DNA from: Veillonella sp. KGMB01456
GTDB lineage: Bacteria > Bacillota > Negativicutes > Veillonellales > Veillonellaceae
Assembly (NCBI RefSeq): GCF_023051165.1
Contig: NZ_JALKIG010000009.1
Span: 1-64,000 of the forward strand
Direction of reading: 5' to 3'
Length of the DNA stretch: 64,000 bases
In this document: positions 9,210-14,825 of the stretch, piece by piece
How positions within the stretch are numbered: position 1 is the stretch's first letter
Layout of the letters: every line of letters begins with the position of its first letter
Position numbers and translations under genes: made by a program
The notes under the pieces: generated by a model
The model's input: only the letters and a program-made list of their open reading frames with translations
Told to the model about the DNA's origin: nothing
Databases searched by the model: none

Positions 9210-10025
9210 TTACCACAACATTCCCGACGTCCAAATCAATCGCAATGCTAAAATCCCTACTCCTAAAGAGAACACCATAAGAATACTGGTAGCTTTAAGA
9301 CGTTTAGCAATAGCCGCACCAAGTTGGGCCCCAATGACGGCCCCAATGCCGCAGGCAATGGCGATATTCCATTGAATATGACCCAAGGAATAATGTGTGA
9401 CTACACCTGTAATCGTGGATAAGAATAATATAAACTGGCTCGTAGCCGTTGCCACATGTGTGGGGAAGCCCAAAATATACACGAGCGCCGCCACGTGAAT
9501 GAGCCCGCCGCCGATGCCGAAAACGCTGGAAATAAAGCCGACTACCACACTGATTAAACAACCGATAGTTTTACTATAGGTCAACTCATGAAGTTGCAAA
9601 GATTCTTCCTTGCGTTGTCCTTTCGTCCAGTTTTTATAACCGATAAACGTCGACATGCAGAGTAGGAATAAACCGAACCAGAATTTCAACATGGATATGT
9701 CGAAGCCTTCCGACGCGACAGCGCCAAGATAGGATCCGGGAATCGTAGCCAGCGTAAACCAGATTGCCGCACTGTAGAGTATTTTTTTCTGCTTAATAAA
9801 CGCTGTCGAAGCGGACATGGCATTGAACATAACAATAGTGAGCGAGGTACCGACTACCATGGCCGGCGACCAGTCGGTAAATAAATATAAGAATACCGGC
9901 ACGAAAATTAAGCCTCCGCCGGCGCCTATGAGTGTCCCGAAGGCTCCTACACCAATACCCAGCACAATAAATCCCAAAAGCACGCCCCACGACATGCCCA
10001 AAATCAATCCTGTTGCCCCATCCAT
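9210..10025 (-). CDS. TauE/SafE-family (TSUP) membrane permease
   Basis: 271 residues with about eight hydrophobic segments and the two-fold internal repeat of this family. Gly-rich motifs GTLIGAGGGLIFVPVFLYL near residue 30 and VFGIGGGLIHVAALVYILG near residue 165 are the paired signature loops. The family exports or imports sulfur-containing organic anions such as sulfite, sulfoacetate or thiosulfate. No sulfur genes flank it, so the substrate cannot be called. It stands alone between the terminators of its neighbours; RBS GAGGTTG precedes the ATG. Confidence 0.85.
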   Translation of the reverse strand: MDGATGLILGMSWGVLLGFIVLGIGVGAFGTLIGAGGGLIFVPVFLYLFTDWSPAMVVGTSLTIVMFNAMSASTAFIKQKKILYSAAIWFTLATIPGSYLGAVASEGFDISMLKFWFGLFLLCMSTFIGYKNWTKGQRKEESLQLHELTYSKTIGCLISVVVGFISSVFGIGGGLIHVAALVYILGFPTHVATATSQFILFLSTITGVVTHYSLGHIQWNIAIACGIGAVIGAQLGAAIAKRLKATSILMVFSLGVGILALRLIWTSGMLW

Positions 10026-10155
10026 AGCCGACTCAACCTCATTTCTCTTTTTTCAAAACACCGACTTAAAATAGCGTAACTACTCTTAATACTGCAAATA
10101 CACCACGTATTTGATTATATCCATATTTTTATTCAGTATATCGCAAAATAAACAG

Positions 10156-10227
10156 AAACGCCATCACTTCCTGGTTATAGCTGTTCGTGATTCAGCTACA
10201 ATCCCGCAAATGATGGCGTTTTTGTTT
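10156..10227 (-). terminator. Long hairpin between lrgB and the TauE gene
   Basis: Outer arms AACGCCATCA and TGATGGCGTT enclose an inner stem TAGCTG/CAGCTA, a two-tier structure. T-rich runs occur on both sides (TTTTTGTTT on plus, weaker on minus). Position suggests it ends lrgAB transcription. About 80 bp on its lrgB side (10228-10327) and 130 bp on the TauE side hold no recognised gene. Confidence 0.55.
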
Positions 10228-10327
10228 ACGTAAGTTTGTGTAAGTGTGTGTAAATACGTATATAGTTAACTGATTGTTCGTGTCAATCAAGGAACTACCT
10301 TAAATCGGTATATTTGGTTGTTTTTGC

Positions 10328-11047
10328 CTATAAAACGGCGGATACGGCTGTTACGATTGGCGCAATGACCGTTGTCATGATGCCCATGAAAATCATGGCC
10401 AAAGAGGCAATAGCACCGGTTTTAGGGCCGTCTTCATAGGCTTTAGCAGTACCGGTCCCATGAGCCGAAATACCGTAAAGCATGCCTTTTAACAAGCGGT
10501 TATGAATATGAGCCCGTTTAATCATCATGGTGGTCATAATCATACCGATAAGGCCGGTTGCAATTACGAGGATGGCCGTAATCGTAGGGTCGCCGCCCAT
10601 TGTATCAGACGCAGCTAAGGCTAGCGGCGTCGTTACGGAACGCGGAGCAATACTGTGAACGAGTTCAGGGCTAAGTCCGATAAGTTCGGCGAGTCCCATA
10701 GAACCCAAGAACGCCACCGAACAACCCATGCCGATAACAACCAAGAGCGGAATAAAATATTCTTTTACTACGCCACGGAATTTATACAAAGGCACCGCAA
10801 AGGCCACGGTGGCCGGTTGCAACATCATCGTGATGTACTGGCTGCCTTCCTGATATACATCGTACGGAATATTCATAGTTACGAGGAATAAACCGATAAC
10901 TACCGGCACGCCCAACAACGGGGTAAAATAGAGTTTTTTGCCGGAACGTTCATACAATTTTTTAAAAAGAAAATACAAAACTACAGTGCCCACTAACGAT
11001 TCGATGATATGAATACTAATCATCTGAAACGGTGAATAATTTACCAT
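10328..11047 (-). CDS. lrgB: LrgB/CidB-family membrane protein
   Basis: 239 residues, multi-spanning. The family signature APRSVTTPLALAAS (about residue 132) and the C-terminal SAHGTGTAKAYEDG are both present. LrgB/CidB works with the holin-like LrgA/CidA; the pair is linked in other bacteria to murein hydrolase activity, cell lysis and, more recently, pyruvate or overflow-metabolite transport. Its start overlaps the end of lrgA by 7 bases, so translation is coupled. The divergent LysR gene is its likely regulator. Confidence 0.9.
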   Translation of the reverse strand: MVNYSPFQMISIHIIESLVGTVVLYFLFKKLYERSGKKLYFTPLLGVPVVIGLFLVTMNIPYDVYQEGSQYITMMLQPATVAFAVPLYKFRGVVKEYFIPLLVVIGMGCSVAFLGSMGLAELIGLSPELVHSIAPRSVTTPLALAASDTMGGDPTITAILVIATGLIGMIMTTMMIKRAHIHNRLLKGMLYGISAHGTGTAKAYEDGPKTGAIASLAMIFMGIMTTVIAPIVTAVSAVL

Positions 11048-11418
11048 AATTTGTACCCCTTTCTACGTAATTTCATAACACTCAAGGTAATAACCGTAAC
11101 GGAAATCAAGAGTGTTACAATACTCGTTACGATAACGCCCAAGAGCATAGCCCCCGTACTGCCAAATAATTGTGTATATTGAATAACCCCTATAGCGGAC
11201 GGAATGAAGAACAACAAAAGTTCCCCGATTAAAACGGCCGCTCCCTGTTCCACCCAGTTAAGCTTGATGATACCTGAGCAGAGCAACAAAAATAACAAAA
11301 TCATGCCCACCAAAGTCCCCGGTAATGGCAGGTTCAACCACTCTTTCAAGTAGCCTCCCAACACTCCAATCAAGGCGAGCAATAGAATCTGACCTACTAC
11401 AATCGCCACACGTTTCAT
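11041..11418 (-). CDS. lrgA: LrgA/CidA-family holin-like protein
   Basis: 125 residues from the ATG at 11418; TAGGAGG lies at a proper distance, while the TTG two codons upstream would be too close to it. Four hydrophobic segments and the motif LNLPLPGTLVGMILLFLLL near residues 28-48 are characteristic of the CidA/LrgA family. Forms an operon with lrgB. Whether it belongs to the Cid or the Lrg branch cannot be decided from sequence alone; the divergent LysR gene resembles the cid arrangement. Confidence 0.9.
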   Translation of the reverse strand: MKRVAIVVGQILLLALIGVLGGYLKEWLNLPLPGTLVGMILLFLLLCSGIIKLNWVEQGAAVLIGELLLFFIPSAIGVIQYTQLFGSTGAMLLGVIVTSIVTLLISVTVITLSVMKLRRKGYKLW

Positions 11419-11477
11419 CCTCAAACGCCTCCTACATATCGACTAATTTTTATTCTGCAATATACTGTGTCTTCATT

Positions 11478-11502
11478 CAATAAACGAATGTTGTATTTAT
11501 TG
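11478..11502. promoter_or_regulatory. Candidate LysR operator between lrgA and cidR-like gene
   Basis: CAATAAA and TTTATTG, perfect 7-bp arms separated by 11 bp, lie in the divergent intergenic region about 60 bp upstream of lrgA. The T-N11-A geometry is that of LysR-type regulator boxes. A second palindrome ATACGGCCGTAT lies at 11589-11600, nearer the regulator's TATAAT (about 11620). Confidence 0.5.
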
Positions 11503-11645
11503 TGTACTCGTATAGGGATTTTTCGATATTCCCTTTGTCATGACTTATTGTATCTCATTTTTTCTTAAAAAAATAATATTTTTTCCCTATACGGCCGTAT
11601 TCTTTTTAGCTATAATAGATGTAGATTATATTGCAGGAGGATTAT

Positions 11646-12596
11646 ATGGATATTACCCATTTAAAATATTTTGTCGAAGTGGCTCGCCAGAAGAGTTTCA
11701 CCAAAGCGGCCCAAACTTTACACGTAAGTCAGCCGTCACTAAGTAAAGCGGTACGCCTGTTGGAAGGGGAATGGAACAAGCAATTATTCCGCCGTCGCGG
11801 GCATCGCATCGAGCTTACCAATGAAGCGTGCGCCGTATTGCCGCAGATTGAAGCCTTAGTGAGGCAATTTGAAGTGCTTGAACACCAGATGCATCACACG
11901 AATGATACGGAATCGGGTGAATTGAGCCTCGGCATCCCGCCGATGATCGGTTCTTCCTTCTTATCGCCGATTATTCGCGACTTCATGGCCGCCTACCCGC
12001 AAATTTCGTTAAAGGTAAGTGAACACGGTTCACCGCAAATCGCCCAGCTTGTACAGGACAATCAATTGCAGGTTGGATTCGTTACCTTGCCGGTGTCTGA
12101 CTTTACCAACCCGGATACACAAACCTATATCTTTAACCACCAGCCTTTATACTATGTGATGCAACCAGATTCACCATTCGCCCATTACGAGTCCGTTACT
12201 CTTCACGAAATTCGCAAAGAACCGCTTGTGTTCTTTCATCCGTCCTTTTCGTTATACGATATCATCTTAGGTCGTTTTCAAGAAATCGGCGTAGTACCGC
12301 AAATCGTAGCGCAAAGCAACAACTGGGACTTCATCACGGAGCTTGTAAAAAGTGGTCTCGGCACGGCTATTTTGCCACAGACAATCTGCGAACGTCTTAA
12401 TAAGGAGCAGTTGGTTTCAATTCCTATCGAGCCCCGCATCAACTGGGTGCTCGGCATGATTTGGAACGAACAGTCCATGATTGTACCGGCAATTCGCCTG
12501 TGGGTTAACTATTTCCGCTCTCATGTGGTGGAAGAACGCCTGGTTCACGGCGAAGATCCGGGGCCTGCCCCTTCTATTTTATGTGATTCTAAATAA
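11646..12596 (+). CDS. LysR-family regulator, CidR-like
   Basis: 316 residues from the ATG at 11646, set by AGGAGG at 11635. N-terminal winged helix (about 1-60, LKYFVEVARQKSFTKAAQTL...SQPSLSKAVRLLE) and a C-terminal LysR substrate-binding domain (about 90-295). Divergent from lrgAB, the usual layout for a LysR regulator and its target. CidR in other Firmicutes activates cidAB in response to acetate or overflow metabolism; the same role here is inference from context. Confidence 0.85.
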   Translation: MDITHLKYFVEVARQKSFTKAAQTLHVSQPSLSKAVRLLEGEWNKQLFRRRGHRIELTNEACAVLPQIEALVRQFEVLEHQMHHTNDTESGELSLGIPPMIGSSFLSPIIRDFMAAYPQISLKVSEHGSPQIAQLVQDNQLQVGFVTLPVSDFTNPDTQTYIFNHQPLYYVMQPDSPFAHYESVTLHEIRKEPLVFFHPSFSLYDIILGRFQEIGVVPQIVAQSNNWDFITELVKSGLGTAILPQTICERLNKEQLVSIPIEPRINWVLGMIWNEQSMIVPAIRLWVNYFRSHVVEERLVHGEDPGPAPSILCDSK

Positions 12597-12608
12597 TCAC
12601 ATAAAACA

Positions 12609-12645
12609 AGCCCCTTACAGCCAATCGCTGTAAGGGGCTATTTTC
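12609..12645 (+). terminator. Bidirectional terminator after the LysR gene
   Basis: AGCCCCTTACAGC pairs perfectly with GCTGTAAGGGGCT around a 5-nt loop, followed by ATTTTC on plus and TTGTTTT on minus. It can also terminate the convergent repetitive gene, and it lies beyond the -1 frame tail of that gene. Confidence 0.85.
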
Positions 12646-12676
12646 ATTCACTATGCGAAACTATGCAGGTAATTAA

Positions 12677-12847
12677 TTACTTTAATAGTTTCTCCAATGC
12701 ACGTTGTCGTTTTTTGCATTTTTCTTTCACCGGTCGGCAATGGTTGCCGCACACTTGACAACGACCTTTACTGTCGGTCAGCAAGGCTTTCTTTTCCGCC
12801 TTGGTCGTCTCGTGTAGGTCCGGTAATTTCTTACCAAGGCGTTTTAT
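12677..12847 (-). other. Possible -1 frameshift extension with Cys-rich tail
   Basis: Directly after the slippery run A-AAA-AAA (12847-12853) at the end of the repetitive protein gene, the -1 frame is open for 56 codons to a TAA at 12677. It encodes a Lys-rich segment and CQVCGNHCRPVKEKC, a C-x2-C-x3-C-x6-C pattern like a small zinc site, then a basic helix ending EKLLK. This frame has a stop just upstream of the run and no ATG or RBS, so it is best explained as a C-terminal extension reached by -1 ribosomal or transcriptional slippage, by a real one-base deletion, or by a sequencing error in the A-run. The next terminator lies after its stop. Confidence 0.55.
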
Positions 12848-14694
12848 TTTTTTGGATTTTTGTCATCCGAATTGCTATGTAATTTTTGCAGGGCATCATC
12901 GATGAAGTCCAATACGCCCAAAGCCGCACCGCGAGCGCTTTCTTTCATATTGTCCGCTACTTCGGAAATATGATCGGCTACTTTGTCAGCTACTTCTTGA
13001 GCTCGTTCAGATAATTCATCGGCTTTATCGGCAGCCTGGTCTTTCAAATCAGCCGCTTTATCGGCTAATTCATCTACTTTGTCCGATGCCTGTTCCTTTA
13101 AGTCTTGCGCTTTATCAATTGCTTGATCTTTCAAATCAGCCGCTTTGTCGGCTAATTCATCTACTTTGTCGGATGCCTGTTCTTTAAGCTCTTCCGCTTT
13201 ATCGGATGCTTGGTCTTTCAAATCAGCCGCTTTGTCGGATAGTTCATCAACTTTATCGGCTGCTTGGTCTTTCAAATCAGTTGCTTTGTCGGCTAGTTCA
13301 TCAACTTTGTCCGACGCTTTATCTTTTAACTCTTCTGCTTTATCAGTTGCTTGATCTTTTAATTCTTCAGCTTTATCAACAGCTTGGTCTTTCAAGTCTT
13401 CAGCTTTACCGGCCAATTCTTCAGCTTTATCGGAAACTTTTTCAACAACTTCTTCTGCTTTGCCATCAGTGGCTTGATTCAAATTCTTGGCTAATTCTTC
13501 TTTAGTGGACATTTCGTCTACCACCTTTCCTTTGACATCATTCACTTTTGACTGCACTGCTGTTGCTACACTGCCAGCTGTTTTGGAAATCTCTTTTGTT
13601 TTGTCAGCCGCGGTGTTAGCTACATCATCAGTCAACTCTTCCAAATTTTGATACCATTCTTCGCTGCGCTCTTGCACGCCTTTTTTGGCGTGTTTCGCTT
13701 TTTTCAATGCTTTTTTTGTTTCTTTTTCAGCCGCTTTAGCTGCTTTTTCAGCTTCTTTCGCGACTTTCTTAGCTTCTTTTTTCGCTGCTTTATGGGCTTT
13801 TTTAATAGATTTTTTTGCCTGTTTAGCGAGTTTTTTAAATTCTTTCCACTCCGTATGGAGCATCAAATCTTCAAGCGTCATTGTCCCCTCTTTGCCATCC
13901 GGCAAGTTTTGGCTCAACATGTCCAAAATATCTTGCAAAAAGATTTCCGATGTTGGGAATACGTTATGATCGTCATCCTCGTCATCATCCACCTCAGCTG
14001 CAAACGCCGCCGAATCGGCCGTTCTCACCCCCGCATTCAATACAGCATTCGTTCCTGCCAATAAATTGTCATCCGCATCGGCTTTTACACTATGAGTTAA
14101 AGATGATTGCGGAATATCTCTATCAGTAATGGCATCAGCTGCCACTGCCTGTGTTTTAGCTGCCGTCGGTTCAGCCACAAGGGTACCATCTTGACGTGGT
14201 ACTACCGAGCCGTCACGGCGATTTACAACGGAACCATCCTGACGAGTCACTACTGTGCCATCTTGACGCGTAGCTACAGCACCTTCACGACGTGCCGCTA
14301 CCGTACCGGCTTGGCGTAATGCAACCGGTCTTTCCGAAACATCTACATCCGCCAAATCCACTTGATCTATGTTTAATTCTTCACTGGTTAGTTCATCCCC
14401 TTGGGCCTGAAATTCATCTTCCAAGGAATCATATATATGAAGCTGCTCTAACAAGTCTTGCGTTTCATCGATTTCCTGCCACAAACTGTCCAATAACGCC
14501 GTATAAAATAAGCGTGCTTTCACTTCTTCATACGCCTGACGCGTAATATGAAGTTCTTCATATGTCAGGTCTTCAGTACTATCCAGCTCTTCTATTAACT
14601 GCTGAATATGACGATCCTCAGCATACTTATTCTGTAACGAACGACGAACCGATTCAATAACAGACTTACCAATGATGCCATGACGATTATGCAT
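12844..14694 (-). CDS. Repetitive LEA-like helical protein of unknown function
   Basis: 616 residues from the ATG at 14694 (GGAG 8 bases upstream; the ATG at 14709 has its RBS too close). No recognised family and no signal peptide or membrane helix, so probably cytoplasmic. In order: a helical charged N-domain (1-120); six exact tandem octapeptides with consensus xTRQDGTV (125-172); an acidic stretch EVDDDEDDD; a very Lys/Ala-rich segment (about 285-345); and 15 tandem modules of 11 or 7 residues, such as DKVDELADKAA and DLKDQAA. The 11-mers resemble group 3 LEA or apolipoprotein-type amphipathic helix repeats. It ends DDKNPKK on a slippery A-run with an open -1 frame behind it. A stress or scaffold role is only a guess. 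Confidence 0.75.
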   Translation of the reverse strand: MHNRHGIIGKSVIESVRRSLQNKYAEDRHIQQLIEELDSTEDLTYEELHITRQAYEEVKARLFYTALLDSLWQEIDETQDLLEQLHIYDSLEDEFQAQGDELTSEELNIDQVDLADVDVSERPVALRQAGTVAARREGAVATRQDGTVVTRQDGSVVNRRDGSVVPRQDGTLVAEPTAAKTQAVAADAITDRDIPQSSLTHSVKADADDNLLAGTNAVLNAGVRTADSAAFAAEVDDDEDDDHNVFPTSEIFLQDILDMLSQNLPDGKEGTMTLEDLMLHTEWKEFKKLAKQAKKSIKKAHKAAKKEAKKVAKEAEKAAKAAEKETKKALKKAKHAKKGVQERSEEWYQNLEELTDDVANTAADKTKEISKTAGSVATAVQSKVNDVKGKVVDEMSTKEELAKNLNQATDGKAEEVVEKVSDKAEELAGKAEDLKDQAVDKAEELKDQATDKAEELKDKASDKVDELADKATDLKDQAADKVDELSDKAADLKDQASDKAEELKEQASDKVDELADKAADLKDQAIDKAQDLKEQASDKVDELADKAADLKDQAADKADELSERAQEVADKVADHISEVADNMKESARGAALGVLDFIDDALQKLHSNSDDKNPKK

Positions 14695-14825
14695 ACTTCC
14701 AGCTCCCATCTTCCTATACCTTCGGTAATAAACATTAAGCTAAAAACAGTAAAAAGCAAATCTATATCATCGAGTGCTGGCTTTTTAGCCATCCCTACAC
14801 ACCCGGATTCGGTGAATCTATCTCT

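Follow-up and report, generated by a model that had tools for sequence, protein, structure and literature searches.

A very likely -1 programmed ribosomal frameshift that would append a four-cysteine tail to a lysine-rich protein in two genera of one bacterial family

The 64,000-nt stretch of Veillonella sp. KGMB01456 DNA analyzed here, hereafter the window, raises the question of how a cysteine-bearing open frame that overlaps the end of a lysine-rich gene in the -1 frame comes to be translated. The gene (12844..14694, minus strand) encodes 616 residues from an ATG at 14694 with GGAG upstream, or 621 if the ATG at 14709 is used, and its zero frame ends in CCA AAA AAA TAA, with the protein terminating in NPKK. 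The zero-frame stop codon (TAA, 12844..12846, minus strand) directly adjoins a slippery heptamer, A_AAA_AAA (12847..12853, minus strand), in the X_XXY_YYZ phase, and the -1 frame, bounded upstream by a TGA at 12865-12863, stays open from 12862 until it meets a stop at 12679-12677. The extension (12677..12847, minus strand) comprises 56 codons plus the stop, and its product, IKRLGKKLPDLHETTKAEKKALLTDSKGRCQVCGNHCRPVKEKCKKRQRALEKLLK, is a basic segment bearing a C-x2-C-x3-C-x6-C module; a 13-bp terminator-like hairpin (12609..12639, no strand assigned) lies past its stop, between convergent genes. A first-pass annotation, made from sequence alone, had reported the gene end with its in-phase heptamer, the 56-codon open frame with its four cysteines, the stop upstream of the run and the terminator beyond the -1 stop, all of which held, and its proposal that slippage is the simplest route into the -1 frame is strongly supported by the comparisons reported below.

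These comparisons make it very likely, in the absence of expression data, that the gene uses -1 programmed ribosomal frameshifting, because an in-phase heptamer coincides with a conserved overlapping frame, a hairpin spaced as a stimulator, a frequently adjoining stop codon and, often, the lack of start codons in the -1 frame. The test of chance occurrence was confined to the window, which holds 89 stop-to-stop ORFs of 100 codons or more; among these, A_AAA_AAR falls in a zone where both frames are open only in the frameshift gene and in one shadow ORF over the RNase J gene. An Rfam scan of positions 12550-13000 yielded no frameshift element at or above the gathering score. The dnaX gene of the same genome was considered as a parallel case and rejected, as it lacks an in-phase A_AAA_AAG and any programmed-looking slip site.

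Nineteen genomes from two genera of a single family carry an orthologue with a -1 tail, and all of these orthologues (19/19) present an in-phase heptamer within the doubly open zone, A_AAA_AAG in 16 and A_AAA_AAA in three. A search of 41 genomes for the four-Cys module recovered it in six of the seven genomes of the window's genus, always as a -1-frame continuation of the same gene. The modules of V. ratti ATCC 17746 and V. seminalis ADV4313-2 are, respectively, 100% and 95% identical to that of the window, which lies in the genome of a Veillonella near V. ratti. The slip site reads A_AAA_AAA TAA in three of these six genomes and CA[A_AAA_AAG]CC[A_AAA_AAG], a tandem arrangement followed by TAG or TAA, in the other three. 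In loci L019, L017 and L018 (genomes G001, G005 and G003), two tandem A_AAA_AAG heptamers lie at a distance of nine bases, each in phase and each within the doubly open zone. In 13 genomes of the second, sister genus, which is probably Veillonella sensu stricto, a Lys-rich stretch carrying an in-phase A_AAA_AAG again closes the orthologue; the module encoded by the -1 frame has diverged (...DRGCGKCKRCKGPKCKKY) and was not detected by similarity to the module sequence of the window. The first-pass annotation would have been refuted by homologues conserving neither the run nor the cysteines; both are kept, and in the -1 frame.

Among 301 genomes of the class, the N-terminal domain of the protein is essentially confined to the family, where 22 genomes have it. 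In a tree built on this domain, the 13 sister-genus and six own-genus sequences form two separate clades, a topology compatible both with a single origin followed by losses and with two origins. Four-Cys ends are encoded in the zero frame in two relatives, L040 (G004, own genus; PCKGCKTKCNPCKKDKK) and L041 (G043; MKRCVCKKKKDRCTC), and in a further genome (G009) the Lys tail carries no cysteines. In G003 (L018 / L006), the -1 tail harbors some 65 extra residues after the slip site and ahead of the Cys module, with the frame kept, and part of this insert is hydrophobic and rich in Gly (GGFIGELIHGVLAGIFARP).

In a homopolymer run of a draft assembly, one might suspect an error of sequencing, or a gene in decay that has recently acquired a frameshift mutation, and a one-base deletion or a misread base had been named from the outset as the rival account. 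This explanation is excluded, because the same break recurs across the 19 genomes in separately assembled species that differ in their heptamers (AAAAAAA or AAAAAAG) and stop codons; purifying selection on the -1 frame, described next, also speaks against it. The finding of eight A's had been proposed as decisive in favor of an error, but it has no diagnostic value here: in V. ratti (G006) the run reaches eight A's by exchange of a C for an A (CCA to CAA), without any inserted base and with the frame left as it was.

The -1 frame is under purifying selection at the protein level and behaves as coding sequence. Each tail contains exactly four cysteines (19/19), pairwise dN/dS values for the tail (NG86) lie mostly between 0.1 and 0.45, and pooled pN/pS values are 0.43 and 0.45. 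Differences are concentrated in third positions of the -1 frame, both in the window's own genus (0.517 vs 0.301 and 0.244 at the other positions) and in the close sister set (0.148 vs 0.068 and 0.068). Within the doubly open zone, moreover, Lys-Lys is spelled A_AAA_AAR in 23 of 33 instances, whereas the rest of these genes gives 17 of 298; the genomes are related and not independent, and the contrast carries no formal probability.

Another alternative is that the -1 frame is a separate small gene with a start of its own, or is reached by termination and reinitiation at the zero-frame stop. In favor of such a start, the window offers a TTG at 12784, preceded by AAGGCGG, and an ATG occurs shortly past the zero-frame stop in G023 and G042. 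The first-pass annotation had stated that the frame has neither ATG nor ribosome-binding site; the absence of ATG held, and the remainder must be refined by this TTG, a start that is not conserved. Independent initiation was rejected on the grounds that seven genomes have no ATG, GTG or TTG anywhere in the -1 ORF, and the sole candidate in G005 is a GTG at tail codon 2. Since own initiation and reinitiation alike leave the in-phase heptamer and the hairpin unexplained, we consider this alternative very unlikely.

The hairpin in question follows the slip site closely. Its 5' arm, CGCCUUGGU (12833..12841, minus strand), begins 5 nt past the heptamer and pairs with a 3' arm, ACCAAGGCG (12797..12805, minus strand), in a 9-bp stem with a fold z of -3.6 and a shuffle p of about 0.015. 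The usual distance from a slip site to the beginning of its stimulatory structure is 5-8 nt (PMC4066793), and in the clearest cases here the hairpin begins 3-7 nt after it, with a spacer of 3 nt in G014. Stem p-values for individual genomes range from 0.005 to 0.16, the hairpin being weak or not found in G003 and G007. The arm sequence CCUUGGU is invariant in the six own-genus genomes, and the stem of the sister genus differs in sequence (CGAUAGUUUC/GGAACUAUCG, and UUAUCGUAGCAU/GUGCUACGAUAG in G014). When the arms of eight sister-genus sequences are aligned by codon, all 80 of 80 pair cells form and four pairs show double changes, whereas controls slid along the sequence are 26-44% paired. It is likely, therefore, that the sister-genus stem has been kept by compensatory change, but the evidence only leans toward structure, because the codon-aligned arms were picked with structure in mind and an automatic MAFFT alignment of the hairpin region did not show the double changes. 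A loop-to-downstream pseudoknot was spotted by eye in some genomes and is not claimed here. Visual inspection also picked out AAGGA-like stretches upstream of the slip site in many sister-genus genomes, which are also common Lys/Asp codons, and no consistent Shine-Dalgarno-like stimulator was seen upstream in the window's genus. The hairpin, the sister-genus orthologues with their diverged module and the two relatives with in-frame cysteines had all been missed by the first-pass annotation.

The same hairpin bears on programmed transcriptional slippage, in which RNA polymerase would add an A within the run and the longer mRNA would be translated normally. Runs of more than seven A's support such slippage (PMC3711429), and here the window carries A7, V. 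ratti A8 and G014 up to A9. Against this explanation, five genomes (G018, G012, G020, G041 and G044) have only six A's before a G, the constant X_XXY_YYZ phase is not needed by a slipping polymerase, and a hairpin 3-7 nt downstream with compensatory change is a feature of ribosomal stimulators. Transcriptional slippage is the main remaining rival and is regarded as unlikely.

Under -1 programmed ribosomal frameshifting, the tRNA-Lys molecules paired in the P and A sites would slip back by one base while the hairpin holds the ribosome, with the adjoining stop codon helping in many genomes. The majority of ribosomes would terminate at the zero-frame stop and release the short Lys-rich protein, and a minority would read on, adding 32-123 residues that end in the basic four-Cys module, so that the predicted outcome is a ratio of uncapped to capped protein. 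In E. coli, A_AAA_AAG ranks with the most efficient of all heptamers (PMC4066793), and A_AAA_AAA is the weaker one (PMC5009743). E. coli has one tRNA-Lys. A tRNA-Lys(CUU), on the other hand, was confirmed by ARAGORN in nine genomes of the family, most of the others having a close match, and the slipperiness of A_AAA_AAG in E. coli may therefore not carry over. The best match to a tRNA-Lys(CUU) gene in V. ratti (L114, G006) has the anticodon TTT, which may mean that tRNA-Lys(CUU) is missing from the species or only from the assembly. The idea that A_AAA_AAA co-evolved with the presence of tRNA-Lys(CUU) was also considered and found unsupported, the CUU tRNA occurring in lineages with either heptamer.

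The zero-frame protein consists of a helical N-terminal domain followed by Lys-rich sequence and 11-mer amphipathic repeats, and has zero to two cysteines in the orthologues with a -1 tail. Its central 11-mer repeats match the YtxH family of Pfam (48.9 bits vs a cut-off of 37.5), which we interpret as a low-complexity resemblance limited to the repeats; the protein shares such repeats with YtxH-like and apolipoprotein-like proteins and departs from them in its N-terminal domain and -1 tail, neither of which matched any Pfam family. An AlphaFold model of the N-terminal domain, computed for one sequence, predicts a helical structure, at a low confidence (pLDDT 67) that does not warrant a fold search, and neither the PDB profile search nor the PHROGs search returned anything meaningful. 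Pfam and NCBIfam scans of the gene revealed no transposase domain and, given also its orthologues across two genera, the gene is taken to be chromosomal and not a mobile element. Viral contigs searched with the central gene segment gave no match, and the many matches to the slip-plus-stem pattern in such contigs were taken as chance.

As for the tail, every copy meets the zinc-knuckle criterion of four conserved cysteines, the spacing of which differs between lineages, and no known zinc-binding family was matched in Pfam by the tail of the window or by two sister-genus tails. The most plausible inference is a small metal-binding (zinc-knuckle-like) or redox cap carried by a fraction of the molecules, a reading for which there are no metal-binding data and which we put forward tentatively, as it could well prove wrong.

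The mechanism itself is of a known kind, best compared with dnaX and IS3 elements, and the gene family with its extension has, as far as could be established, not been described before. Like this locus, E. coli dnaX is a non-mobile gene in which a hairpin follows an in-phase A_AAA_AAG, and it gives two proteins with a common N-terminus (PMC3711429, PMC5009743); unlike it, dnaX yields a shorter shifted product, where that of Veillonella is longer, and relies on an established Shine-Dalgarno-like upstream stimulator, none being conserved in the window's genus. Cassettes of the IS3/IS911 type share the slippery A-rich heptamer, the downstream hairpin or pseudoknot and a product extended past the zero-frame stop (PMC4066793), and are set apart by the lack of a transposase domain in the Veillonella gene, its chromosomal nature and its orthologues in two genera. 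In E. coli copA, a -1 frameshift likewise alters the C-terminus encoded by a cellular gene (PMC5009743), but the outcome is a short product of 70 aa and the protein is unrelated.

Well-supported -1 programmed frameshifting is rare in non-mobile bacterial genes, with dnaX and copA as the clearest instances in the reviews consulted. The present case is comparatively strong in that both genera have kept the slip site, the reading frame and an RNA structure, with compensatory change in the structure and two relatives bearing a zero-frame four-Cys end. Here the shift lengthens the protein by a Cys module, rather than resulting in truncation. No paper combining Veillonella with programmed, ribosomal or slippery-site frameshifting was found in the literature searched, and the text of PMC3711429 and PMC5009743, examined for it, does not mention Veillonella. 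Standard gene callers are expected to overlook the tail and, for this reason, the full-length protein may be missing from databases. As a bolder possibility, a frameshift kept across two genera might set how much of a Lys-rich helical protein carries the four-Cys cap and how much lacks it, and this ratio may respond to metal or redox state, or to the charging of Lys-tRNA through two Lys tRNAs competing at A_AAA_AAG; if true, this human-associated anaerobe would possess a bacterial recoding switch that is regulated and not mobile. Veillonella are culturable commensals, and the frameshift is therefore testable.

The surroundings of the gene deserve brief mention. A 65-codon ORF with hydrophobic stretches and no Pfam match (14595-14792) lies on the strand of the frameshift gene and overlaps the start of that gene. 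On the other side, positions 9213-12593 of the window hold a TauE/SafE-like gene, LrgA-like and LrgB genes and a LysR regulator, the gene for which converges on the frameshift gene, with the terminator-like hairpin, apparently bidirectional, common to both.
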